IMG/VR virus record: IMGVR_UViG_3300023181_000002
Span: 35,883-99,882 of that record
DNA: 64,000 nucleotides
From: a virus
Reading direction: 5' to 3' (one strand)
Positions 3,734 to 63,013 of the stretch are shown here, piece by piece; the first letter of the stretch is position 1, and each line of letters opens with the position of its first letter. The notes under the pieces were generated by a model. The model did not search any database. It was not told where the DNA came from and saw only the letters and a program-made list of their open reading frames with translations. A program made the position numbers and the translations under genes.

Positions 3734-4237
3734 CTACTGCAAAGAAGTATACTTCAAAGAATTATTATAAAAAATGTACCGCTCACCAGGAGCAAGTGAA
3801 ATTGTATTGACTATAGTACCTGAATCATCTATATCCATCGATCCGGCAGTTGTATTCACTGTAAGGTTTCCTGTTCCTTGGTTGATCAAGGTTAAACGAT
3901 ATCCAGAGAATACTCCCAAAGGAGGTAATGTCCAAACAGCAGTTGTCCCTGTAAAAGTATAATATGAAGTATAGGAGTTTATCTGAAGTGTTGCCGCAGA
4001 AGAAACAATGTTTATAGCAGACATCTTTCTAACCCATCTTCCAGTAGGCTGACCCGTGACTTGTATTACATTGAAGCCATCAGGAGTCGCTGTATTGGAA
4101 GCTCTAAACATGTAGATATCTCCAAATCCATCGTTTATAGAGTCTTTTCCGTTGACAGTTACGGCTATACCATCAGATCCTGCCTGAGAACTTAGGTCAG
4201 AAATTAACGCGAAAGAAGTTGGTCCTAATTGTCCCAT
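3734..4237 (-). CDS. small tail fibre/spike accessory protein
   Basis: A 167-residue protein starting MGQLGPTSFALISDL. The frame extends to a GTG at 4270, but the ATG at 4237 sits behind an AT-rich leader and is preferred. The middle has 'MSAINIVSSAATLQINSYTSYYTFTGTTAVWTLPP', and the end 'LINQGTGNLTVNTTAGSMDI', a beta-strand pattern seen in C-terminal domains of phage tail fibres. It lies between two fibre/spike genes and probably contributes to the host-recognition apparatus. Confidence 0.6.
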   Translation of the reverse strand: MGQLGPTSFALISDLSSQAGSDGIAVTVNGKDSINDGFGDIYMFRASNTATPDGFNVIQVTGQPTGRWVRKMSAINIVSSAATLQINSYTSYYTFTGTTAVWTLPPLGVFSGYRLTLINQGTGNLTVNTTAGSMDIDDSGTIVNTISLAPGERYIFYNNSLKYTSLQ

Positions 4238-4318
4238 TGTTAATAAAAATAAAGTTTGAATTATATACACTTAAAGTAACATACATAATTCAAACTTTTA
4301 TAAAAACTTATTTAACGG

Positions 4319-6604
4319 TTATTTTTTATAAGAAATATTGTAACTCAAATTGTTTGTGCCAGATGCGGGAGCTACTGCATAGGTTAAAATGAAATTCGTC
4401 GCGTCTGCGGTTATTAAGGGGTTTACATTGGAAGCGACATTATTTGCAATAAGCGAAACTATGACAGGTACGTAAGAAAGTCCATGAGCAATATTAATAG
4501 TCGTTGCAGCTCCTGTTCCAGATGCTGTTTTTACCTGCGTTATAATGGCCGATGGATTGGACACTAAAGGCACTCCGATCCATGTATTTGTACCTATACA
4601 AAAATAAATTCCATCTACTGTAAATTTTATTTCACCAGTAGTACCCGTATCTGTAGCAGAGCTAGGTGTTACATTTGGCGCGTTTAATCTGTATTGATTC
4701 TGATATAAGCGACCAGATGAATCTACGTAAATTAAATTTGTATTCCCGGTTGCTTGTATAGCAAATCCGTTGGAAGTTCCCGCTCCAGTACCTTGAATTC
4801 TTAATCTAGGGATATCTGAAAAATAATCCAAGGCAAAACTAGCTGCTGAGTTATTTGCATTTACTACAGTTTTAGTTGAATTATATGGAATAGTTTTTAT
4901 TTCTTTAGTAGTATTATCATAAACAACAAAAGCGTCGGTAGTAGCACCAGCAATTAATGAATTAACTATTAATTTATTAACAGTTAATTTCCCAGAACTA
5001 TCCACTAAAAGCATATTTGCATTTGCTACCGTTTGTATAGCAAAACTTGCTGAACTATTTTGAAGTCTAATTCTAGCAATTCCACTAAGCCAATTCATTA
5101 TAAATGATTCGTTGACATTTAATGGGTTTATATTTTCATACAGGTTGCGAACATTGGTAGATGTTAATTCGACTCCAGTAGTTACTTGATTTGTAATTGC
5201 TACATTGTAATATATATTACTACAAGAATCAAAATACCTATCAGCATATTGAGAAGGAGCTGAAACGCTATAGTTAGAAGCCTGCCCCGTAATAAGTGTA
5301 TCTTTTGCTCTGTAGGCTTTAAATCCATAGCTATTGCTCAATGTGAACGCACCACCTGTGATAGTGGTAACACCCGCACGCGAGTTAGCATTATTGCCGT
5401 CTGAAAGTACTCCTATAAGTTCATTTTGTTCTGAATTTGATAAAAAGAAACCATGATAATAATTATCCTGACATTCCACTCCTACAATTATACACCTATT
5501 GCTACTTTCTAAGTGAACACCAGAATAATTAACATCAAGCCCTGACTTCCCGTTAGATATTATTTTACCTCCAATTATTCTAGTGTTTGCGCCTCCAAAA
5601 TTATAAAATCCATCAAATCCACAATTGGATATGTCATTATTATAAAAAGCGTTATCAGTAGTAGAGTTGTAAATTCCATACTCATCACAAAATTGAATAT
5701 AATTATTTCGAACTGTAAATATCCAAGCAACAGCTTCTGCTCTTATGCCTGATTTTTTAAAGTCAGTAATAAAAAGATTATCTATAGCAGATGCGGTACT
5801 CTTAGCGCCGTCATTATCTATATCTGCTGCTATAAGGATTGCATTACCTATTGCTCCATTCGACTTATTACCTTCCAGTCGTAAGTTATATAAGCCACCT
5901 CTTGCATAGTTATAAAGTTTAAACAAATCTCCTGTATAGTTAGCTTTTAACCTAAATACAGACTTCTCTTTACTTTCTCCAATCAATGTGATACCTTTTC
6001 TTACGGTTATCGTTTCGGAGATATATGTTCCTATAGGAACTTTTATACTACCTCCAAGTAGGGTGTTGGGATAATATAGCGCTTTTTGAATGCCTATTGT
6101 ATCATCTTGTGTCCCATCTCCCACCGTAAACCACTTTAAGTTGGCAGCTTGCTGGTTTGAGGCTACATTTCCCGCTCCAGTAAATAGTAGCTGATTACCC
6201 TCGTCTATAGGAGATAAAATAGTTAATACAACTGAAGATGATATATTTAAAGTAGACCCAGGAAGCCAATTTAGTTTAATATTGGATGGTATTGATATAT
6301 TTGATGTGATCGCTAGTGTCTTGTCAATTAAAATAGTTGCAGGCGAATTTCCAAAATCATTTATCAACTTCTGGAAATTAGCCTGATTAACAGTTGTCAA
6401 TCTACTTACCGGCCAAGGTCCTGCGGCATTCCACTTGAAATATTTATTAGGACCCGTTATTGTAACATCTCTATTGTATAAACCCCCACAAAGCGCATCC
6501 GTCATAGGAGACCCATCTCGCCAAGTTGTAACAATGGTAGGTGCTAAATATTCACCGGTAATCGGGTGTAATTTATTAGGAAGTAAATTTGGTACCGTAG
6601 CCAT
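4319..6604 (-). CDS. tail spike with pectin-lyase-like beta-helix
   Basis: A 761-residue protein. After a particle-binding-like N-terminus (about 1-150), the motif 'GDGTQDDTIGIQKAL' near residue 160 and 'GGSIKVPIGTYI..TITVRKGITLIGE' mark the start of a right-handed parallel beta-helix, which continues with regular Asn-rich coils to about residue 480. The C-terminus (about 685-761) carries 'INIAHGLSYVPVIVS', typical of phage fibre tips. Such spikes bind and often depolymerise surface glycans. Catalytic residues cannot be named from sequence alone. Confidence 0.85.
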   Translation of the reverse strand: MATVPNLLPNKLHPITGEYLAPTIVTTWRDGSPMTDALCGGLYNRDVTITGPNKYFKWNAAGPWPVSRLTTVNQANFQKLINDFGNSPATILIDKTLAITSNISIPSNIKLNWLPGSTLNISSSVVLTILSPIDEGNQLLFTGAGNVASNQQAANLKWFTVGDGTQDDTIGIQKALYYPNTLLGGSIKVPIGTYISETITVRKGITLIGESKEKSVFRLKANYTGDLFKLYNYARGGLYNLRLEGNKSNGAIGNAILIAADIDNDGAKSTASAIDNLFITDFKKSGIRAEAVAWIFTVRNNYIQFCDEYGIYNSTTDNAFYNNDISNCGFDGFYNFGGANTRIIGGKIISNGKSGLDVNYSGVHLESSNRCIIVGVECQDNYYHGFFLSNSEQNELIGVLSDGNNANSRAGVTTITGGAFTLSNSYGFKAYRAKDTLITGQASNYSVSAPSQYADRYFDSCSNIYYNVAITNQVTTGVELTSTNVRNLYENINPLNVNESFIMNWLSGIARIRLQNSSASFAIQTVANANMLLVDSSGKLTVNKLIVNSLIAGATTDAFVVYDNTTKEIKTIPYNSTKTVVNANNSAASFALDYFSDIPRLRIQGTGAGTSNGFAIQATGNTNLIYVDSSGRLYQNQYRLNAPNVTPSSATDTGTTGEIKFTVDGIYFCIGTNTWIGVPLVSNPSAIITQVKTASGTGAATTINIAHGLSYVPVIVSLIANNVASNVNPLITADATNFILTYAVAPASGTNNLSYNISYKK

Positions 6605-36717: not shown

Positions 36718-37884
36718 ATGATTTTAAAGGCATTCAAATATAGGCTTAATCCAACTAAAGAGCAATCTATTTTAATAGATAAGCATATTGGATCATGTCG
36801 GTTTGTTTATAATTTAGCTCTCGAAACTAAGCAAATAGCTTATGCAGGAAGCCAAATAAACCTATCCTGTTTTGACTTAATGAAGCAATTGCCTGACTTG
36901 AAAAAAGAATGCGAATGGTTGAAAGAAGTAAATAGTCAATCATTACAAGCATCAATTACAAACTTAGACAATGCCTACACTAATTTTTTCAAAGGTCAAT
37001 CTAACTTTCCTAAATTCAAATCAAAAAATAAAAGCACTCAAAGTTTCAATGTACCTCAAAGTATTACCCTAGAAAATGGGAGGCTAATTATCCCAAAGTT
37101 CAAAAAAGGCATTAGTGTTGTTCAACATAGAGCTTTTGAAGGGAAAATCAAACAAGCAACACTTTCAAAAACTCCTACCGGCAAATACTTTGCGTCTATT
37201 TTAGTTGAAATAGCTGACAATATTATAACTAAAAAGCTAATCACAAAAGAAAATACTATTGGTGTTGATTTAGGTATTAAGCACTTTTTAATAACCTCAA
37301 ATGGCAAGAAAGTTGCAAATCCAAGATTTTTAAAAAATTCATTATCTAAGCTAAAATATACTCAAAAAAAATATTCAAATAAAAAAGGTAAACAAAAAAA
37401 ACATAAACTTCAAAAACTCCATGAAAAAGTAGTAAATCAAAGAAAGGACTTTTTACATAAAGTTTCAAGTGATTTAGTCAAGAACCACGACACGATTGCA
37501 TTAGAGACGTTGAAAGTAAAAAACATGATTAAAAACCATAATTTAGCACAGGCAATTTCAGACGTTTCTTGGGGAACATTTGTAACAATGCTCGAATATA
37601 AAGCTAATTGGTACGGAACAAATATTATAAGAATTGGCACATTTGAGCCCTCTTCTAAGACTTGCTCTGACTGTGGTATAATAAATAAAGAACTAAAACT
37701 TTCTGATCGTGAATGGAGTTGCAAAAAATGCAATACAACTCACGATAGAGATATAAATGCAAGTATCAATATTAAAAACTTTGCATTAAGAAATTCGTGT
37801 ACGGAACATACACATAAAAATCGTAAAGAACTGCCAACATTGGTTGGAGTATTGACTTACGAAACCACTATTCATTTAGAGTAG
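36718..37884 (+). CDS. tnpB: TnpB (IS200/IS605-type RNA-guided nuclease), no TnpA
   Basis: A 388-residue full-length TnpB. RuvC residues are intact: Asp184 (GVDLGIKHF), Glu263 (ALETLKVKNM) and Asp345 (HDRDINASI). The zinc finger has Cys316, Cys319, Cys335 and Cys338. TnpB proteins are RNA-guided DNA nucleases that act with an RNA from the element's right end. No Y1 transposase (TnpA) gene is nearby. The gene is inserted plus-strand between two minus-strand virion genes without breaking either. It is more AT-rich than its neighbours, which suggests recent acquisition. Confidence 0.9.
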   Translation: MILKAFKYRLNPTKEQSILIDKHIGSCRFVYNLALETKQIAYAGSQINLSCFDLMKQLPDLKKECEWLKEVNSQSLQASITNLDNAYTNFFKGQSNFPKFKSKNKSTQSFNVPQSITLENGRLIIPKFKKGISVVQHRAFEGKIKQATLSKTPTGKYFASILVEIADNIITKKLITKENTIGVDLGIKHFLITSNGKKVANPRFLKNSLSKLKYTQKKYSNKKGKQKKHKLQKLHEKVVNQRKDFLHKVSSDLVKNHDTIALETLKVKNMIKNHNLAQAISDVSWGTFVTMLEYKANWYGTNIIRIGTFEPSSKTCSDCGIINKELKLSDREWSCKKCNTTHDRDINASINIKNFALRNSCTEHTHKNRKELPTLVGVLTYETTIHLE

Positions 37885-42500: not shown

Positions 42501-42771
42501 TAAGTTTTTCACTCCATGAATTAAGTCCGGTATTAGCAAGCGAACCTAATTTGTTGCCTAAAATGGCCCCTGCTGGTCCAAGATAGTACCCGCCAACAAG
42601 AGATAATACCGGACTCAAGGCTTTATCAACTACAGAACCGAAAACGTTGGATGTACCGTCAGTATTCTGCCCGGAAATTGCCAAACGCGTTTTGCCCCAC
42701 CAATTACTACTAAAATTTCGTAATCTTGGCTGACTTGTAATCTGAGGGGCTATTGTATTAAATAATGCCAT
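39508..42771 (-). CDS. large internal virion protein with peptidoglycan-binding-like segment
   Basis: A 1087-residue low-complexity Gln/Asn/Gly-rich protein. Near residues 717-760, 'IKEFQNSYNEWATANG' followed by 'KVDGLYGPQTSAAVTNW' matches the peptidoglycan-binding-1 repeat (vDG.yGp.T..AV..fQ). A Gly/Ala-rich early segment (LVGGYYLGPAGAILGNKLGSLANTG) is membrane-active-looking. The C-terminal part is Gln-rich helical. It is probably ejected to help DNA cross the envelope. It overlaps the upstream HNH gene by 14 bases and the downstream gene by one. Confidence 0.65.
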   Translation of the reverse strand: MALFNTIAPQITSQPRLRNFSSNWWGKTRLAISGQNTDGTSNVFGSVVDKALSPVLSLVGGYYLGPAGAILGNKLGSLANTGLNSWSEKLTKGTSTQIQSIATNNKEEGNDALINILSQVAGAAGGAAKSSNLFASSSKPADSGFTTSEAGKSFDSLIRGNLAQSNGFSSAPVAAATSNGFGGAVGALAKPSFLDALKANAGQSQQNPLLSNVTNLLTQYSQNQNQNMINPGNANQFQMNSTVGMGQTNSILEPASGNSNITWLDDQKKTKQVGTSTLPNPIYGSAIDDKFGYPTLNGFADGGKTADGAIIYDKNDKTTEDYYMLPKVSIENTPVEHMIKSLSIGAARFGERIFDQESNLKQEQIMRSPLSLDKKKALLGDHIYDELLTHKDFQGDQNFADGGKPKPKPYITSNPNDPRIRAYNDSAALYNNYNQVTAALIKAGYNNGQVKDKETLLSNLFNVASKILPSLPTGNYHKETDPWKQAMNVVHNFPQLTGLTRKGTLNQVDDFVAGVINKNIPKQLYSDSIKPSGVTNYFKDIKPEELANVFATDDNKKLIPAKISSRREAIQDIRTVAKYDNVKPNQQVIYQPTQKTVVPTVTPTRKEQFAQRLQTPVAPQRVVMPNVDPIENTDQIQMVLPDIQVPVYVAPQIPVVQPLQSLPSALPGETMDAYQRRLAGLRKSNPNTYKTNTNQFKQPVMEQDNFAGGGKVKYQTRAGAKPDIKEFQNSYNEWATANGLPAIKVDGLYGPQTSAAVTNWNATNPGREVFVESLNKGNIGGSIAKAITGLDLQPLLGSANKPSIASAIRGYDSKGNPVTETSPLSYGNGVNQVSFGGQNPLQNLVAVNTGTPSSTTVVAANQSGLTPSQRQNLFGNIADLATAGVGAVISMNNPIPRYKPTTEYTNMLQDVYARKNQGFTAAEQAAVNQGLQNNYALGVNTIKQVAGGGASQGAVLGALGQLSSQQNQGTLNAALQSDQLQRQNYANYQKVVQGDLTLDQNIFAQDQQAALAQRTAGVGLLDAGLQNIADRNQFNAQYGAGTTYDQLQQAQLSGAQKQNQLADLYPQIYAQALRDSLNKKTPTTVKI

Positions 42772-43900
42772 CTTCTTGTTTTTTCAAAAGAAATTTCTTG
42801 TTATTATACTTACTAATAAAATCTACATTTAAAATTTCTTCCACATTCCAACCTGCTTGATATCTAAAATACAAAGTGCCCGGTTTAATGTTTAACCTGT
42901 CAGACCACTGAGATATTGTCATTTTTAACCCATTCAACTCTAAAAATATATTATCTCTCTTATTATTAGCTTGCTGTTTTGATGTAGCCCATCTACAATT
43001 ACTCAATTCGTAATTACCATTTACATCAATTCTATCAATGCTATGATTTTTAGATGGAGCGGCACCCATATCTAAATAGAAATTATCAAAAGACTCTAAC
43101 CATCTATCGCAAACACTTATACCTCTATACCCATAATGAATATAACGCTCATCAGAGTCATTATAACACCTTGACTTCATCTTTGACCAAGAAGAATACT
43201 CTTTACTGAAAGACATATTATGTTTAATATTTATAACTTTCATTAAAGCATTTTTGTAGCATCCACATGATTTACAGTCCCCACTAACTATTGAAGCTAT
43301 ATTAGACTCAAATTCCTTACCACATTTACATAAAAATACTGCACGTCTATTGTTATTACTATATCTTTGACTCTCCCTTAAATAAATACAGGAACCTACT
43401 AAATCTCCATGCTTATAATGTATAAATTGAGAAGATCCTCTTTGTTTAGCTTGTACACACCCACAGGAGGTAGTATGCTCTCTTTTGACATTTAATATAA
43501 AGGCCGTAAATTCATTACCACAACGACACCTAAATAAAGCTTTCCTTCTCTTACTATCACCGTCAACATCTTGCAAGAAAACACACTTGTCTCCTAGTGT
43601 TTCACCTGGATAATAAAGGTGATTATAACTCACTCTCCTTCTCTTTGATTCATCAAGTAAACGAGCTTCTATTTTAAAACTTCCAAACTCAGGATTGCAT
43701 TCAAGAACGCCACTTTTTAAAGACTCATACAAAGGAGATTCATCCGTAAACCAATTTTCACCGAATTCAGACACAAACTTATTTCGCTCATCTTTGTCCT
43801 TTATTTGCTTACTAAGTAAATAATCAGAATGTTTAATCAGATTTTTAACTTGATTAACACCTAAGTCTGGATAAGTAATTTTATAAGTAGCTAATATCAT
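42758..43900 (-). CDS. HNH endonuclease with zinc ribbons and duplicated phage N-terminal module
   Basis: A 380-residue protein. Residues 1-72 (ILATYKITY ... FGENWFTDESPLYESLKSGVLE) are paralogous to the whole protein at 48667-48909. Two Cys-rich ribbons follow (FRCRCGNEF...CGC at about 123-148 and FLCKCGKEF...CGC at about 189-214). Then an HNH-type core at about 258-314 (YRGISVCDRW, HSIDRIDVNGNYELSNCRWAT). A C-terminal helix-turn-helix-like region (ISQWSDRLNIKPGTLYFRYQ) may bind DNA. This matches free-standing homing endonucleases of phages. It lies inside the virion operon, behind a GAACCAC element. Confidence 0.85.
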   Translation of the reverse strand: MILATYKITYPDLGVNQVKNLIKHSDYLLSKQIKDKDERNKFVSEFGENWFTDESPLYESLKSGVLECNPEFGSFKIEARLLDESKRRRVSYNHLYYPGETLGDKCVFLQDVDGDSKRRKALFRCRCGNEFTAFILNVKREHTTSCGCVQAKQRGSSQFIHYKHGDLVGSCIYLRESQRYSNNNRRAVFLCKCGKEFESNIASIVSGDCKSCGCYKNALMKVINIKHNMSFSKEYSSWSKMKSRCYNDSDERYIHYGYRGISVCDRWLESFDNFYLDMGAAPSKNHSIDRIDVNGNYELSNCRWATSKQQANNKRDNIFLELNGLKMTISQWSDRLNIKPGTLYFRYQAGWNVEEILNVDFISKYNNKKFLLKKQEDGII

Positions 43901-50987: not shown

Positions 50988-53534
50988 CTATACTGTTTGT
51001 GGTTCTTGTTGCTTATTCTGTTGCGCCATCTTCAAAGCTTCATTCTCCTGGCGAAGCCTTTCAAGTTGCGCCTCCAAGCCGGCCTGATAAGATTGACTGT
51101 CTTTATTTAACTCGTGATCAAGAAGCTTATCCTGCGTTTTATTGGTATCATTGATGTCATTCAAAGCACCTTTCGCATCTTCACGTTTACGCTGCTCGTC
51201 GTTTTTCAACTGCTGAACGTTCGCTGCGGACTGTGCCTGAATCTGCGCTACATCCACAGGTATCTGATTTTTCTGCTGCATGGTCTGAGCCTGCAACTGT
51301 GCCTGCTGACTTGCGGCCTGCTGTGCTTGCTGCTGTGCTGCCTGAAGCTCCTCTTTTGCTTTACGGAAAATAGATAGCGCCTCGGCAGGATTATCCGTGT
51401 AAAGGATATTAATCAAAGGCTCCAGCATATCGATACCGCCCGAAGAAAGCACCTGCATCACCGCGTTATCTAAGATAGCCTTTTTATCCTTCAATGCCGC
51501 ACCGGATTCCAAATAAATATCAAAATCCGCAACATTTAAATCTTTACTCAATTTCAAGAACTCGCGCTCTCCATCAGAGAGTTTCACATTGATATATCCT
51601 TCACGCGCATACACATGCTTGCTCACATCGCCAACCCTTTGAAGCACCTGGTTCATGAAAAGGTTATGCTCGTAGAATTTCTCCACTTTAAGCTGACTCT
51701 GCGCGGCAATGTTCATCTGCTGCTTAGCGCCAGACTCGTAAGGATTAGATATGCCCTGCACCTGTTCACTCGTGCCGATGATACGGTTATATCCTTCGTT
51801 AAGAATCCCGATCAAGGTAAGCATATTATTGATCTCGTTAATATGGTTCCCCATCTGAAGCATCGTTAAATGCTTTTGGGTATACTCGTTAGAGCCTACC
51901 ATCTTCGAGCTGTTATACATCAGGATACCCGTCTTTTTAGCGCTATACAGCGCATCCTTAGCGTGACCCGATCCAATGATCGCTTCATCGATTAAAAGTG
52001 CCGCATTAAGCCCTGAAAGGTTGACAATATCCTCGATACGGTTAAACAGCGTATTAGTCATCCTTGCAAAGTTCTCTCCGACCAAAACCAAAGACTTTTC
52101 CCGGCTGATCTGCGCTACAATAGGCATGCCTACATAACGCTCTTTTACCGGTTTTACCGTAGCATATTTATAACGGCCCACATCAAGCAGCGTCCCATGC
52201 CCGATACGTGTCGCTTCCCATAATTCTCTTTTGTGTTTCTCTTCAGTATATCCCTTCGGAGGTTTCTCATTCGGATCAATCTCGATCCAGTTGGCGATCA
52301 TCGTACGATCATCATCAATCGTCTTACGCCACTGCTCCACCTCTCGAGCGGTAGTCGGCTTCCCGTTCATCTCTACCAGGTATTTCTTAGGCACAGACAC
52401 CTTGAAAAACATCTTCTGTTCAAGGATCGTATTGGAAAGCGCATAAGCGCCTTTCTGAAAAGGATAAAAAACGTTTCTGAAATAATCTGCCCTGCCGAAC
52501 TGTGGATTAGTATGTTCTGAAAAGTTATTCGCTACAGAGGTGAGCACATTGGTTTTGTAGTATTCTGAAAAGTATGGCCTCGAAGGGTCGTAAATGCATT
52601 CAACACCATCTCTCAATTTCTTTGCCGCGTCAAGAAGTCCCTTTGCGCCGGTGCCGGTATCGAGAATATCCCCGTATTTATCCATCACCTCTGTAAGCGT
52701 TAGATAATCAATCACTGATGCCGCGACAAGTCCCGAATCTTCGAAGGTTTCTATGCCGCGTTTTCCCACCATGCGCACATTCGACGGGTGTACATGCTTC
52801 ACAACCACTTCACCATTGACTACATCCACAAAGGCGAACTCTGAATTGATGTCGAATTTATTATCAAAACAGTCTCTGCCTAATTTTAACAAATTTTGCT
52901 CATTATTGACATGCTGAAGGATTTTAAACAAGATCAGCTCCATCTCATCAGAAGCAAATAATCTATCCAGTACCTCGTCAATAGGTGCCGCTAAGCTGAT
53001 GCTTTTATCTTCAAGGAAATCCAGATTCACACCATCCTGAGAAGCAGCCTGCTGTGAGAGAAGATTCTTTAAAAGTTTCTTCGCGTTGGATTTATCTTTT
53101 TTAAGCTTTTTAAAGCTGTACTCGTTAGAGATATTCTTAACGGTATATTTCAACGGCTGCTTAACGATCTCGCCTAACGTGTGCGATTTAGCGGCATAAA
53201 AGAAATGGTTATCGCGCATCGGGGTTAAACCCTTGTAGCCGTATGCCATCTCCGCAGCAACATAATCTTTCGGGTCGATCTTTCCCTTGGCAACATTGAA
53301 AAGGTGAGGCGTGTTCGGGTTATCATCGTCGTAGATGCCTGATTCATTGAATAACATCGAATCACTAAGCTGCTGAATCTGGTTCAGCCACAGCGTATCA
53401 TCTTTCTCGTATTCCTTCTTCCAGATCAGCAAAGGAGGATCAAGCATCCGCTTACGCTTGCCAGGGAATGTACCATCATCCCTGATCTGTATCTGGGTTA
53501 GCTCGTCGTAAAGTGTTTGCTGTAATGGGTCCAC
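50988..53534 (-). CDS. portal protein
   Basis: An 848-residue protein, the size of portals in crAss-like and related podoviruses. Helical N- and C-terminal regions flank a mixed middle (VNGEVVVKHVHPSNVRMVGKRGIETFEDSGLVA), and a Gln-rich coiled C-terminus (QAAQQQAQQAASQQAQLQAQ) extends like portal barrels. It is the first gene of the late block, next to the divergent control region, as expected for the packaging vertex. It forms the dodecameric channel used by the terminase. Name based on size, position and composition. Confidence 0.75.
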   Translation of the reverse strand: MDPLQQTLYDELTQIQIRDDGTFPGKRKRMLDPPLLIWKKEYEKDDTLWLNQIQQLSDSMLFNESGIYDDDNPNTPHLFNVAKGKIDPKDYVAAEMAYGYKGLTPMRDNHFFYAAKSHTLGEIVKQPLKYTVKNISNEYSFKKLKKDKSNAKKLLKNLLSQQAASQDGVNLDFLEDKSISLAAPIDEVLDRLFASDEMELILFKILQHVNNEQNLLKLGRDCFDNKFDINSEFAFVDVVNGEVVVKHVHPSNVRMVGKRGIETFEDSGLVAASVIDYLTLTEVMDKYGDILDTGTGAKGLLDAAKKLRDGVECIYDPSRPYFSEYYKTNVLTSVANNFSEHTNPQFGRADYFRNVFYPFQKGAYALSNTILEQKMFFKVSVPKKYLVEMNGKPTTAREVEQWRKTIDDDRTMIANWIEIDPNEKPPKGYTEEKHKRELWEATRIGHGTLLDVGRYKYATVKPVKERYVGMPIVAQISREKSLVLVGENFARMTNTLFNRIEDIVNLSGLNAALLIDEAIIGSGHAKDALYSAKKTGILMYNSSKMVGSNEYTQKHLTMLQMGNHINEINNMLTLIGILNEGYNRIIGTSEQVQGISNPYESGAKQQMNIAAQSQLKVEKFYEHNLFMNQVLQRVGDVSKHVYAREGYINVKLSDGEREFLKLSKDLNVADFDIYLESGAALKDKKAILDNAVMQVLSSGGIDMLEPLINILYTDNPAEALSIFRKAKEELQAAQQQAQQAASQQAQLQAQTMQQKNQIPVDVAQIQAQSAANVQQLKNDEQRKREDAKGALNDINDTNKTQDKLLDHELNKDSQSYQAGLEAQLERLRQENEALKMAQQNKQQEPQTV
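50999..51005 (-). promoter_or_regulatory. GAACCAC element inside the portal 3' end
   Basis: GAACCAC forms the portal codons for Glu-Pro-Gln near its C-terminus and lies 14 bases before the start of the next gene at 50984. Confidence 0.45.
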
Positions 53535-58749: not shown

Positions 58750-58821
58750 TTTAACGGTTTGTCCCTTTAAAATTCAGTACCTAGATTTGGGTAGTTTTTA
58801 AAATTTAACCAAATCAATACC

Positions 58822-59130
58822 ATGTCAGGAAAATTAATCTCCCTAAAAGAAGCCACCGAAAGAAAGGAAGCATACCGTAAACTGCCGCTTGCTGCGGATC
58901 AGATATATGTAGAGTCTGAATTCTACAGCGTAGATATCTTAAAGAAACTTGTTGGAGATGTGCCTATAAAGGATGTAGCCGGGCTGAGAGTGAGCTTTGC
59001 ACAGGTGGGCCGCGAAGGGAAATCTGTTCTGACGACCGTTTTAGAGTTGGTTCTGAAGGAGGAGGTTAAAACTGAAACTATACAAGAAGCTGCGGGAGAT
59101 CCGCCGGCTTGTCCCATATTCTGTTCATGA
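58822..59130 (+). CDS. conserved Bacteroidota small protein, first gene of a two-gene cassette
   Basis: A 102-residue protein (LISLKEATERKEAYRKL ... VAGLRVSFAQVGREGKSVLTTVLELVL ... GDPPACPIFCS). The central 'GLR' strand and Cys-containing 'C.P.CP' end resemble a small-protein family I recall from Bacteroidota chromosomes that sits ahead of a multi-pass membrane gene. It overlaps the following membrane gene by four bases. Its function is unknown to me. Confidence 0.6.
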   Translation: MSGKLISLKEATERKEAYRKLPLAADQIYVESEFYSVDILKKLVGDVPIKDVAGLRVSFAQVGREGKSVLTTVLELVLKEEVKTETIQEAAGDPPACPIFCS

Positions 59131-59801
59131 AGCAATATTTAACATTTTTTGAAAAATATCCAATCATTGCTGTAAGCATTTTTGCAACATTTCTACCTAT
59201 AATAATATTCACAATCCGCAGGAGCAATAAAAAGCCTTTGCGGGTTTTGTTTTTATGGATGGCACTTAAAGTGTTGTTCGACCTCGTTGGTCTTCACTTT
59301 GCATCACAAAGTAAGAATGATTTATTTATCTGTAATGGATGGGTACTTATTAGCTTTATGTGTAATGCATGGTTCTTTTATGAAGTATTTGTTGATGAAA
59401 GAATGAAGAATAAGATAAAATATATCTCTATCGTCTATTGTTCAATATTCCTAATAGACTTCATTATATGTAATCCTGACTTTTCAGATTTTTATAGTCA
59501 TAGATATGTTTCTATATCATTTCCTCTGCGCTCAGCGTTTTTAATTTACTTCTGTCTTATATTTTATCAAGAAGTAATTAAAGAACTTTATATTGATCAT
59601 ATTGAGCGTTCAGCGATATTTTGGGCAGTAAGCTCTATTTTGATATACAACGCAACATCCTTATTTACTACCGTAATAAACCATCAGGAATTCTCCTGGG
59701 ATAGTAAGCGTATGATGGTTATGATCATGTATATTCCTTATGTAATGGATACTTTTCAAATGGCGATAATTTCAGGAGGTTTGCTTGCTGAGAAGAAATA
59801 A
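59127..59801 (+). CDS. multi-pass membrane protein, second gene of cassette
   Basis: A 224-residue protein with about six or seven membrane segments, a basic N-terminal tail and short loops. I use the ATG at 59127 in the ATGA overlap; a TTG at 59109 is rejected. Its topology resembles 7TM sensor-like proteins of Bacteroidota. On a phage it could act in superinfection exclusion or envelope sensing, but this is only a guess. It ends at a strong promoter-like sequence for the second TnpB gene. Confidence 0.65.
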   Translation: MKQYLTFFEKYPIIAVSIFATFLPIIIFTIRRSNKKPLRVLFLWMALKVLFDLVGLHFASQSKNDLFICNGWVLISFMCNAWFFYEVFVDERMKNKIKYISIVYCSIFLIDFIICNPDFSDFYSHRYVSISFPLRSAFLIYFCLIFYQEVIKELYIDHIERSAIFWAVSSILIYNATSLFTTVINHQEFSWDSKRMMVMIMYIPYVMDTFQMAIISGGLLAEKK

Positions 59802-59815
59802 AAATGTTATATTTG
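59785..59815 (+). promoter_or_regulatory. Bacteroidota-type promoter before second TnpB gene
   Basis: TTG at 59785-59787 and TATATTTG at 59808-59815 are 20 bases apart, within and just after the membrane-protein gene. Transcription would start near 59822, giving a leader of about 100 bases. Confidence 0.6.
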
Positions 59816-59860
59816 TCTATATAAAAATGTGTTTTGCAGAACACTATAAAGAATCTTTTT

Positions 59861-59906
59861 AAATCCTGTCCGGTGCGTAGCTGCAACTACAATCCTGTCA
59901 GGATTT
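59861..59906 (+). repeat. structured leader of second TnpB gene
   Basis: AAATCCTG (59861-59868) and CAGGATTT (59899-59906) can pair as an outer stem, with an inner GTAG/CTAC stem. The 9-mer AATCCTGTC appears twice (59862-59870, 59891-59899) as a direct repeat. This may be the left end of the element, or a structured mRNA leader. Confidence 0.4.
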
Positions 59907-59922
59907 TTAATTTATAAAAAAA

Positions 59923-60957
59923 ATGAATTTAACAACATTGCAATTTAGGATAAAGGATGAAACTAGCAGAAGCTGCCTAATTGAAATGGCTAATTCTGTT
60001 AATTTTGTTTGGAATTATTGTAATGAAGTTAATCAGGAACGATGGAAGAAATTTAATAAAACATTTTCTGCATTTGATTTAAATAAGTTAACGTCTGGCT
60101 GTGCAAAGGATTTAGGTTTACACTCTCAAACTGTCCAAGCTATATGTGAAGAATACTACAAATCCTGTAAGCGGCGTAAAAAGGCTCGTTTAAAGTGGCG
60201 TTCTAGTAAGAAATCACTTAAATGGATTCCATTTAAAGGTTCTGGGATTAAAGTTGAGAATGACAAGATTGTTTATGCTGGTCATGTTTTTAAATTCTGG
60301 AAATCTAAGCCTTTCGATGGTAAGATTCGTTTTGGATCATTCTGTCAAGACTCAAAAGGTAGATGGTTTGTGAATTTAGTTATTGAGAAAACTATCCATA
60401 AAAGAACATCTACAGGTAATGTTTGTGGAATTGATTTGGGCTTAAAAACACTTTTAACTCTTTCTGATGGAGTAGAATTCGATCGCGGAAACTTAACCAA
60501 AAAATATGAAAATAAGTTAGCTATTGCGCAACGAGCAAAAAAGAAAAAGCAAGTAACAGCAATCCACGATAAAATAAAAAACCAAAGGAGAGACTGGAGT
60601 CATAAAGTAAGCACGTTACTCATAAGAGAATACGACAAAATAGTGGTTGGAAATGTTTCCAGTTCTCAATTAATGAAAACAAAAATGGCCAAAAGCGTCT
60701 CTGATGCTGGATGGTATAGCTTCAAAGAGATGCTTTCATATAAATCCATTAGGGTTGGTGTCGAATATAAAGAAGTGAATGAAAGTTTTTCAACCGTGAC
60801 ATGCTCCGTTTGTAAAGAGCGGAGCGGCCCAAAAGGTTTGCTCGGATTGAAAGTAAGAGAATGGGTATGCAGCCATTGCAACACCTCACATTTGCGAGAT
60901 GTGAACGCGGCTAAAAATATACTATCATTCTCCCTACAGGACATTGTAGGCCATTAA
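59923..60957 (+). CDS. tnpB: TnpB with alternative catalytic glutamate, no TnpA
   Basis: A 344-residue TnpB of a different lineage from 36718-37884. RuvC Asp171 (GIDLGLKTL) and Asp326 (HLRDVNAA) are present. At the usual RuvC-II Glu site the sequence reads 'IVVGNVSSSQL', so Glu is Gly243; in this subgroup a Glu in 'VNESFST' (Glu287) probably replaces it. The zinc finger has Cys294, Cys297, Cys316 and Cys319. The downstream scaffold end (60963-60988) supports an active RNA-guided nuclease. No transposase TnpA is near. Confidence 0.85.
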   Translation: MNLTTLQFRIKDETSRSCLIEMANSVNFVWNYCNEVNQERWKKFNKTFSAFDLNKLTSGCAKDLGLHSQTVQAICEEYYKSCKRRKKARLKWRSSKKSLKWIPFKGSGIKVENDKIVYAGHVFKFWKSKPFDGKIRFGSFCQDSKGRWFVNLVIEKTIHKRTSTGNVCGIDLGLKTLLTLSDGVEFDRGNLTKKYENKLAIAQRAKKKKQVTAIHDKIKNQRRDWSHKVSTLLIREYDKIVVGNVSSSQLMKTKMAKSVSDAGWYSFKEMLSYKSIRVGVEYKEVNESFSTVTCSVCKERSGPKGLLGLKVREWVCSHCNTSHLRDVNAAKNILSFSLQDIVGH

Positions 60958-60962
60958 GGGAA

Positions 60963-60988
60963 TCCATCGTAAAGGTGGAGGATGTCAA
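60963..60988 (+). ncRNA. 3' end of a TnpB guide-RNA scaffold (reRNA/omegaRNA)
   Basis: TCCATC-GTAAA-GGTGGA is a six-bp hairpin, followed by GGATGTCAA, the usual right-end signature of IS200/IS605 elements of this TnpB type. The guide would start at about 60989 (GAAGGTTATTGGTTGAAG...). The hairpin starts six bases after the stop codon. Confidence 0.7.
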
Positions 60989-61025
60989 GAAGGTTATTGG
61001 TTGAAGAAAACTAAACAAAATTAAT

Positions 61026-61199
61026 ATGACACCTATCAAATACTTTTTCCTGAGATTATTTTATAACTTATTCTTTTCAAAGAAGATATTAAAAATGGTA
61101 ATATCTTCAGAATTAGATTTAGGTGAATTATATAATACAAGTTCCGGCATGAATATGACTTACTTGGGCAAAGGAATATTCTTAATGAAAACAAAATAA
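61026..61199 (+). CDS. hypothetical 57-residue protein
   Basis: A short frame starting MTPIKYFFLRLFYNLFF, hydrophobic and aromatic at the N-terminus, which could be a membrane segment. It lies just after the TnpB scaffold end and two bases before the next short gene. No family is recognised. Confidence 0.5.
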   Translation: MTPIKYFFLRLFYNLFFSKKILKMVISSELDLGELYNTSSGMNMTYLGKGIFLMKTK

Positions 61200-61201
61200 C
61201 T

Positions 61202-61378
61202 ATGGGATTCGTAACACTCGCAGATGGTACTGTAATACATGCCAGTTTATTAGCGCCACCAAGTAATGTGCCTTACACTTACCGCATTACTACATGGCCT
61301 TTAAAAGAAAAATGCCAGGATATAAGCCCTGACATAGTTGATTCTATCACTCAGGATACTCCTCGTCCCAATATCTAA
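61202..61378 (+). CDS. hypothetical 58-residue protein
   Basis: A short protein (MGFVTLADGTVIHASLLAPPSNV...). It overlaps the convergent cupin gene by 32 bases. Codon use is like its neighbours. Function unknown. Confidence 0.5.
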   Translation: MGFVTLADGTVIHASLLAPPSNVPYTYRITTWPLKEKCQDISPDIVDSITQDTPRPNI

Positions 61379-61976
61379 ACTGATATCCACCCTCAAAGAA
61401 CCTGTAAAAGCCCGACTTCTGCTCCCATGGCCCCGGAAGGATTAACGTGTAACACTCACCCTGCGGCAGAGAAATAATCTGATGGATATGGTTCGCTTCG
61501 ATGGTATGAACGGTTCCAGGTTTTCTTTCGATATCTTCGTAGTGCCATAATCCATATGATCCAATAGTATAGACCCTTTCAATGTATCCTCCGGAGAGAA
61601 TGTGGCTTGTAAATGAGAAAGGATGATTGTGTGGGTCACCTGAATCAATCTCCGTGAAGTGATGGATAACCGCGTCGAAGGGAAGTCCTAATATATGTTG
61701 CTTTGTAAAGATGTCTGACATCTTCTCTGTTTTGATTTCAATTTCCATAATTAAATATCCCATATTGTCGTAAGCATCCAGAAACCATTTACTTTTAGCA
61801 ATATTAGCGTATCGCTCTTTAATACTTAATGCCGATACTGATGCCTTGTTAAGCATTCGATCTTTTCTCTCAGCGCGTTTCTTTTCGCGATTCGCTTCCC
61901 ATTCATTCAATTTTTCAGGGGTCATCCCGTCAAATACGGTGTCTATTTCTAAGTTTAATTTATCCCAGTTTTCCAT
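61347..61976 (-). CDS. cupin-fold protein
   Basis: A 209-residue protein. After a charged helical N-terminus, a cupin barrel is suggested by 'DPHNHPFSFTSHILSGGYIE' (His116, His118) and 'ANHIHQIISLPQGECYTLIL' (His163, His165). Cupins bind metals or small molecules and include dioxygenases and sugar enzymes; the substrate cannot be told. It is the last gene of the minus-strand set. Confidence 0.75.
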   Translation of the reverse strand: MENWDKLNLEIDTVFDGMTPEKLNEWEANREKKRAERKDRMLNKASVSALSIKERYANIAKSKWFLDAYDNMGYLIMEIEIKTEKMSDIFTKQHILGLPFDAVIHHFTEIDSGDPHNHPFSFTSHILSGGYIERVYTIGSYGLWHYEDIERKPGTVHTIEANHIHQIISLPQGECYTLILPGPWEQKSGFYRFFEGGYQFRYWDEEYPE

Positions 61977-61978
61977 GG

Positions 61979-62206
61979 TTATTTCTCTTCGATAAATTCG
62001 TATAAAGGTTTCATTCTAAAATTTCTTTCTGGTTGCTGTCTTATCATGTCTTGCATTGTTCTATTAGCATAAACCTTTGCAGAGTATACTTTACAATTCC
62101 AGTGTTGCATCCAGAATTCTTCCTGATATACAGTTCCATCTTCATCTTTAAAAGATCGCATATAACTCCTTTCGATGATATATCCGTATAATCTTTTCTT
62201 ATACAT
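61979..62206 (-). CDS. hypothetical small protein
   Basis: A 75-residue basic protein rich in Tyr, Lys and Arg (MYKKRLYGYIIERSYMRSF). No family is recognised. It lies two bases before the cupin gene. Confidence 0.55.
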   Translation of the reverse strand: MYKKRLYGYIIERSYMRSFKDEDGTVYQEEFWMQHWNCKVYSAKVYANRTMQDMIRQQPERNFRMKPLYEFIEEK

Positions 62207-62210
62207 AATC

Positions 62211-62660
62211 TCAGTTCTTTACATGCCCATAAAACCCATCTTCATTCTGCTCCCACGTTCTCGCTTTGTTCTCTTCAAGTTTCTCCCTGAAAGCGTCAAA
62301 TATATCCTGTACACCGATGCCGCATCTCCCCGCAGCATCGAACAGCAACATCTGCGCGTCGGCGAATTCTTTCACGTCAGGCTTGCCATCTTCGATGCTT
62401 TCCTGGATTTCCCTGATCTCAGACTTTAAATGGTTGAGACTTGATAAGGGTGTCGCTTCGGGGAAGGTTTTAAGAGACCATGCGAAGCGGTCATGTTCTA
62501 AATCATATATATTTACATATTCCACTGGTCTTGATATTATACCCTTGCCACTGCAAACGTTACAAGTGCTATTGTGAAATAGGACATTATTTTGCCATCT
62601 GGTTCCTAGGATCACTCCGTCACCGTAACATCTTGGACAGGTTTGATATTCTGGTTTCAT
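62211..62660 (-). CDS. zinc-ribbon/DUF550 nucleotide-hydrolase-like protein
   Basis: A 149-residue fusion. Residues about 8-40 hold CPRCYGDG and CNVCSGKG (Cys8, Cys11, Cys33, Cys36), the DnaJ-type zinc-ribbon pattern. The rest matches the DUF550 (dATP/dGTP diphosphohydrolase, MazG-like) helical pattern: 'LNHLKSEIREIQESI', 'EFADAQMLLFDAAGRCGIGVQDIFDAFREKLEENKARTWEQ'. DUF550 enzymes remove nucleotides, in phages perhaps to alter host dNTP or alarmone pools. It starts in a four-base overlap. Confidence 0.8.
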   Translation of the reverse strand: MKPEYQTCPRCYGDGVILGTRWQNNVLFHNSTCNVCSGKGIISRPVEYVNIYDLEHDRFAWSLKTFPEATPLSSLNHLKSEIREIQESIEDGKPDVKEFADAQMLLFDAAGRCGIGVQDIFDAFREKLEENKARTWEQNEDGFYGHVKN

Positions 62661-63013
62661 ATTTTCTTCTCAGTTAATCTTTTAAAATAATCCAACTCTT
62701 TGCCTTGCTTTTTCAAATAAGCACCCGTGCCGTATTTTTTAATAAAGTCGGCATCAATTTTACCCTTCTCGCGTATAATAAAGCAGTCATAATGAATCTT
62801 TATTATTTTAGCATAAAACCAGATAAATGCACCAAAGCCTAAAATCGCCATAATAGTATTCAGCACAGGTATCATGCTCAGACGCAAATATTTAATCTTC
62901 TCCGCTTTGGTGTTCAGCGTGGGAGGGATGTCTCCCTGAGAGGTGCTCAGCCAGCGGTAGAATACTAACTGGATGCCTGCTGAGAGGAGGTATGTTAGGA
63001 GGAAGTAGGTCAT
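62657..63013 (-). CDS. two-TM membrane protein
   Basis: A 118-residue protein with membrane segments at about residues 1-18 and 48-72 (MIPVLNTIMAILGFGAFIWFYAKII), then a basic C-terminus. It overlaps both neighbours by four bases. No family is recognised. Confidence 0.6.
   Translation of the reverse strand: MTYFLLTYLLSAGIQLVFYRWLSTSQGDIPPTLNTKAEKIKYLRLSMIPVLNTIMAILGFGAFIWFYAKIIKIHYDCFIIREKGKIDADFIKKYGTGAYLKKQGKELDYFKRLTEKKI

Follow-up and report, generated by a model that had tools for sequence, protein, structure and literature searches.

The stretch of DNA analysed here (the window) covers 64,000 nucleotides, positions 35883-99882 of a virus record of 99,882 bases (IMGVR_UViG_3300023181_000002), and carries at 59923-60957 on the plus strand an intact open reading frame of 344 codons. 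By curated models and predicted fold, its product is a TnpB. Thus, the NCBIfam model guided_TnpB (NF040570) scored 225.6 bits (cut-off 100), and the Pfam families PF07282 (1.3e-20) and PF01385 (6e-12) were both above gathering, which places the RuvC and zinc-finger architecture of the protein above the curated cut-offs. The AlphaFold2 model, made with 28 aligned sequences, has a pLDDT of 87.5, and Foldseek returned ISDra2 TnpB (PDB 8h1j, E 1.1e-18) as its top PDB match, with mimivirus Fanzor2 ranked fourth. The features of the locus are listed below.

59802-59922, plus strand: upstream interval with a terminator-like AAATCCTG...CAGGATTT; a recognisable left-end hairpin and tnpA are absent
59923-60957, plus strand: tnpB coding sequence, an alternative-glutamate (Ealt) TnpB of 344 aa (Pfam, NCBIfam, AlphaFold2, Foldseek)
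60433-60435, plus strand: codon of Asp171 in RuvC-I (GIDLG), invariant in the alignment
60649-60651, plus strand: codon of Gly243 at the canonical RuvC-II glutamate position, non-acidic; Gly in 40/40 sequences
60781-60783, plus strand: codon of Glu287, the predicted relocated RuvC-II glutamate; Glu in 40/40
60898-60900, plus strand: codon of Asp326 in RuvC-III, conserved in 41/41
60934-60988, plus strand: predicted 3' scaffold core of the omegaRNA, 55 nt, overlapping the end of the reading frame (covariance model)
60934-60949, plus strand: stem-loop 1, CTACA-GGACAT-TGTAG, with its stem at 60934-60938/60945-60949; all helix pairs covary and 99-100% of cells are paired
60963-60979, plus strand: terminal hairpin TCCATC-GTAAA-GGTGGA, whose counterpart in relatives is CCCCGTCC-TTTA-GGACGGGG
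60982-60986, plus strand: 3' strand of the pseudoknot, ATGTC, pairing with loop GACAT at 60940-60944 (covariation)
60989-61004, plus strand: predicted guide, first 16 nt GAAGGTTATTGGTTGA, directly 3' of ...GTCAA; boundary from near-identical copies

The catalytic residues were read from an alignment of 40 distinct full-length sequences, namely the window TnpB and 39 viral relatives, with the second TnpB of the window (described below) also compared. The relatives comprise 52 viral-contig loci, the full-length ones being 42-67% identical to the 344-aa protein; family members also occur in Acinetobacter phage HFM1 and Salmonella phage LPSTLL. At the canonical RuvC-II position, where Gly243 aligns with the Glu278 region of ISDra2, glutamate is present solely in the window's other TnpB. 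Six residues lead from Glu287 to the first zinc-finger cysteine, an exact spacing kept in all 40 members, and alignment with mimivirus Fanzor2 (PDB 9b0l) puts Glu287 on the glutamate of vNEylttktC, this Fanzor2 also having glycine at the canonical place. An alternative glutamate of this kind, 'Ealt', was described by Yoon et al. 2023, in whose account the D-hydrophobic-G and the DPG proteins form two clades (PMC10711439). The window protein has the glutamate six before the zinc-finger cysteine, lacks the canonical one, and carries the non-proline motif DLG in RuvC-I; it therefore falls in the Ealt D-hydrophobic-G clade and not among the pro-Fanzors. Pro-Fanzor or Fanzor identity, which needs DPG in RuvC-I together with Ealt, was set aside, and the likeness to 9b0l in glutamate place and RuvC-II glycine stops at RuvC-I, which is DPG in Fanzors. 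The spacing from RuvC-I to the glutamate also departs from the published description, being 112-114 in all 40 members as opposed to the 120-160 of the search pattern in PMC10711439, which none of the 40 match. ISDra2 TnpB is alike in fold but has its catalytic glutamate in the other position and is longer, 408 aa compared with 344 aa. Judged from these alignments, Glu287 is the putative catalytic glutamate in an already described second position. An earlier note on this DNA, made from the letters alone, had pointed to glycine at residue 243 and to Glu287 within VNESFST, and had proposed a known subgroup with a relocated catalytic glutamate; the residues read exactly so and are invariant in the 40 members, and the subgroup corresponds to the published Ealt clade, with the Fanzor2 glutamate aligned.

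The D-E-D triad would thus be completed by D171, E287 (in the alternative position) and D326, and the protein retains all catalytic and zinc-binding residues. This bears on one alternative, a TldR-type repressor that is RNA-guided but has lost its nuclease function. Such repressors are TnpB relatives carried by prophages (PMC13418256), but the RuvC residues lost in TldR are intact in the window TnpB, and we regard this identity as extremely improbable.

The second component of the locus is its RNA. A covariance model built from 22 relatives, with the window left out, matched 60934-60988 only (38.1 bits, E 6.3e-8 for the 64-kb window; a single match in the whole record as well). In the family consensus, a stem-loop with loop GGAC(A/G)T is followed by a short stem, a GC-rich hairpin and then GGA(T/C)GTCAA. 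The pairing between the loop and the 3' end covaries, with GACAT/ATGTC and GACGT/ACGTC among members and GGCAT/ATGCC in the nearest viral relative (L003). Overall, 98.1% of cells are paired, whereas shuffled controls reach 73.5% and slid controls do not exceed 46%, and two-sided changes number 64 as against 18; a second alignment, with the window left out, gave the same covariation outcome. Folded as a single sequence, the window RNA did no better than shuffles, and the support for it is entirely comparative. On this evidence, 60934-60988 is predicted to adopt a conserved fold of two hairpins and a loop-to-3'-end pseudoknot. The same topology is known from the ISDra2 omegaRNA, in which stem 1 is accompanied by a pseudoknot involving the nucleotides just 5' of the guide; its scaffold has 116 nt (PMC10097598) as opposed to about 55 nt here, a figure that refers to the conserved core, the full omegaRNA possibly extending further 5'.

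The covariation also argues against a decaying remnant. The left end of the element is not recognisable, as might be expected of one, yet the reading frame is full, catalytic and zinc-binding residues are kept and the RNA fold is maintained by compensatory changes, so that decay appears very improbable. In two other family members, L007 (5001-6023) and L009 (4998-5993), tnpB has one in-frame TAG each, the remaining frame being open, which could be a nonsense mutation or TAG recoding.

The right boundary of the scaffold, and with it the start of the guide, was obtained from copies at different sites. The loci L019-L021 and L024 share 99.7% identity over a stretch that opens with the start codon and runs on for 17 bases past the stop; beyond it they are unrelated, the break falling exactly after TCAA, and many Massilia genome copies diverge at precisely the same point. 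Since near-identical copies part company after TCAA, the window guide, by homology, is predicted to start GAAGGTTATTGG at 60989. This agrees with the guide start given in the earlier note, which had also taken the hairpin and GGATGTCAA at 60963-60988 as the end of the scaffold; GGATGTCAA sits at 60980-60988, directly 3' of the terminal hairpin, and the covariance match and covariation bear that assignment out. The scaffold is larger than was then seen, adding stem-loop 1 inside the end of the reading frame and the pseudoknot 60940-60944/60982-60986. The 3' end of tnpB thus lies within the omegaRNA, whose guide is at the right end, as in a TnpB locus, and no repeat array that would indicate a CRISPR-Cas12 system was found in 58800-63000. 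Taken as a whole, the locus looks like an active RNA-guided DNA nuclease with its own guide RNA, as we infer from its sequence.

A readable guide invites a search for its target. The earlier note had suggested comparing it with phages and plasmids of Bacteroidota, beside a TTGAT- or TTTAA-like motif; such a motif would have to be read at the left boundary of the element, where no end is recognisable. In an exact search of IMG/VR contigs the 18-nt guide had no match, and a sensitive search of phage and plasmid collections gave chance-level matches only, none significant. As a control, the 18-nt guides of two relatives (L003 and L024) were searched; their matches, in unrelated contigs, ended at the 18-nt query and were read as chance. 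A 17/20 match in the terminase gene of a sister phage (G001, see below) was set aside; it has mismatches at guide positions 4 and 6. These results weigh on the idea, raised in the same note, that the TnpB is a weapon directed at competing phages or plasmids that are unrelated to its own phage and whose DNA the guide matches. TnpB cuts any matching DNA adjoining an accepted motif, so that such a use is conceivable; however, the guide has neither an exact IMG/VR match nor a significant phage or plasmid match, the guides of the two relatives met unrelated contigs only as chance predicts, and we give the weapon little credence.

By terminase similarity, the phage lies near the gut crAss-like phages, distantly (about 23% identity). 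Portal and terminase probes recovered one full sister phage, G001 (IMGVR_UViG_3300023096_000001; 96,243 bases), which is syntenic, has a terminase 77% identical and is without both TnpBs and without the HNH endonuclease gene. The latter, at 42758-43900 between two large genes, is a third mobile nuclease gene in the record. That one phage carries two different TnpBs, as had been noticed earlier, holds: the second, at 36718-37884, has the canonical glutamate and is only 29% identical to that at 59923-60957. It is inserted between two minus-strand genes that are nearly adjacent in G001 (about 53152-53169), which therefore offers a usable empty site for it. Around 59923-60957, G001 keeps the left gene (59109-59801) and the further-right gene (61979-62206), but the DNA between these syntenic genes was not alignable above shuffles. 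The G001 locus is thus too diverged at the DNA level for an empty target or insertion point to be read, and the earlier proposal of a guide match at the homologous empty site of a related phage found no alignable counterpart in G001, which lacks the gene. The flanking DNA of this TnpB had no match among phages; used as empty-site probes, the left neighbour gene gave no match and the right one a single distant match without a usable site. Adjoining the TnpB on the minus strand, 61347-61976 has a cysteine-dioxygenase-like PHROG match (1.8e-19). The pairing of two divergent TnpBs has a parallel in the epsilon crAss-like phage crAssE-Sib, whose two, different in sequence from those here, are present in only some relatives (PMC11054128); the parts of that account available to us make no mention of guide RNA or active-site type.

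How the gene moves is the next question. A Y1 transposase (tnpA) was found neither nearby nor in the whole record, in a search that detected it in the positive control genomes, and the locus is in this respect not a complete IS200/IS605 transposon. Upstream of the window tnpB no left-end-type hairpin was found, in a scan that can miss divergent AT-rich ends; it allows G-T pairs, as a version without them missed known left ends. Such a hairpin or a nearby tnpA was present upstream in 11/40 phage-located copies as compared with 32/51 genome copies, a contrast that is suggestive only, because Massilia copies related to one another make up most of the genome set and AT-rich ends can escape the hairpin test. 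Neither feature was found in the remaining 29 phage copies (about 70%), which include the window and L003. The many family copies in Massilia cavernae (L090-L119 and others) share a common left end after TTCAT and would make a good set for the adjacent motif.

These data can be set against a passive IS200/IS605-type passenger, moved by a host Y1 transposase in trans, with TnpB only protecting the element during excision and having no phage-specific role. In its favour, the closest cellular relative (L066, a Cyclobacteriaceae assembly; 66% identical) has a complete, intact, divergent tnpA beside tnpB, tnpA is also present in the phage contigs L004 and L020, and the right end ...GTCAA is of IS605 type. 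Against it, tnpA is absent from the record and no left-end hairpin, which a transposase would need, was recognised, likewise in 29 of the 40 phage copies. We consider the passive passenger unlikely, while giving it some weight. At L066 itself (4054-5394), a DDE-type transposase gene stops exactly where the omegaRNA end of tnpB lies, and its insertion appears to truncate the Cyclobacteriaceae omegaRNA.

Salmonella phage LPSTLL (L142, 3900-5100) provides a case in which empty sites can be read. Three related phages have the site of its family TnpB unoccupied, and in them GTGAT runs directly into the guide sequence. The left flank of the LPSTLL insertion retains AGAATTAAT, the first nine guide bases, which may reflect an aberrant left junction; a duplicated guide start of this kind was looked for at all loci and is not general, being absent in the window.

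Published work describes TnpB, guided by its own flank, as cutting the empty site and so keeping or spreading the IS200/IS605 element, with retention and gene drive as consequences (PMC11870625). By analogy, homing through cleavage of the empty allele would be the likeliest function of the window TnpB. With the scaffold at 60934-60988 overlapping the 3' end of tnpB and the phage DNA immediately to its right serving as guide, TnpB would cut copies of the site without insertion, given a target-adjacent motif; repair from an insertion-bearing phage would keep or copy tnpB; and the outcome would be retention and homing of tnpB among co-infecting sister phages. We think it probable that this Ealt TnpB, with its own guide RNA, acts in this way on insertion-free sites, the cleavage activity, the adjacent motif and the homing all being derived from established TnpB biology. 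In line with this reading as a whole are the protein family and fold, the catalytic columns, the Fanzor2 alignment, the RNA model and covariation, the right boundary, the lack of a Y1 transposase, the absence of both TnpBs and the HNH gene from G001 and the LPSTLL empty sites; on the other side, a target or empty allele was not found for the guide, the G001 locus is too diverged and the left end is unrecognised. The earlier suggestion of 'phage weapons or homing elements' is thus only partly supported: homing is the likelier half, by the analogy and the sister phage lacking the gene, and for the weapon no guide target was found.

Both the Ealt clade and two TnpBs on one crAss-like phage were known before. 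The observation holds and is well formed, and what it adds is mainly one more member of a described clade. Less settled is the idea of a homing lineage among the phage copies that does without transposase and left end; the data for it are suggestive only. A tentative extension, which we hold to be possible but rather doubtful, is that the phage Ealt TnpB lineage has shed transposase and left end and now spreads as tnpB with its omegaRNA and nothing more, the natural scaffold core being only ~55 nt, as the RNA-guided counterpart of free-standing homing endonucleases.

In the literature available to us, the Ealt clade without DPG is described mainly by sequence. Since the present TnpB is unusually small (344 aa) and has a defined guide RNA, one can test directly whether it is active, which adjacent motif it accepts and what the relocated glutamate does, and the compact protein and scaffold may serve genome editing. 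Should the phage copies prove to spread as units that need neither transposase nor left end, they would count as RNA-guided homing endonucleases, which would give a testable reason for the abundance of TnpB on phages.
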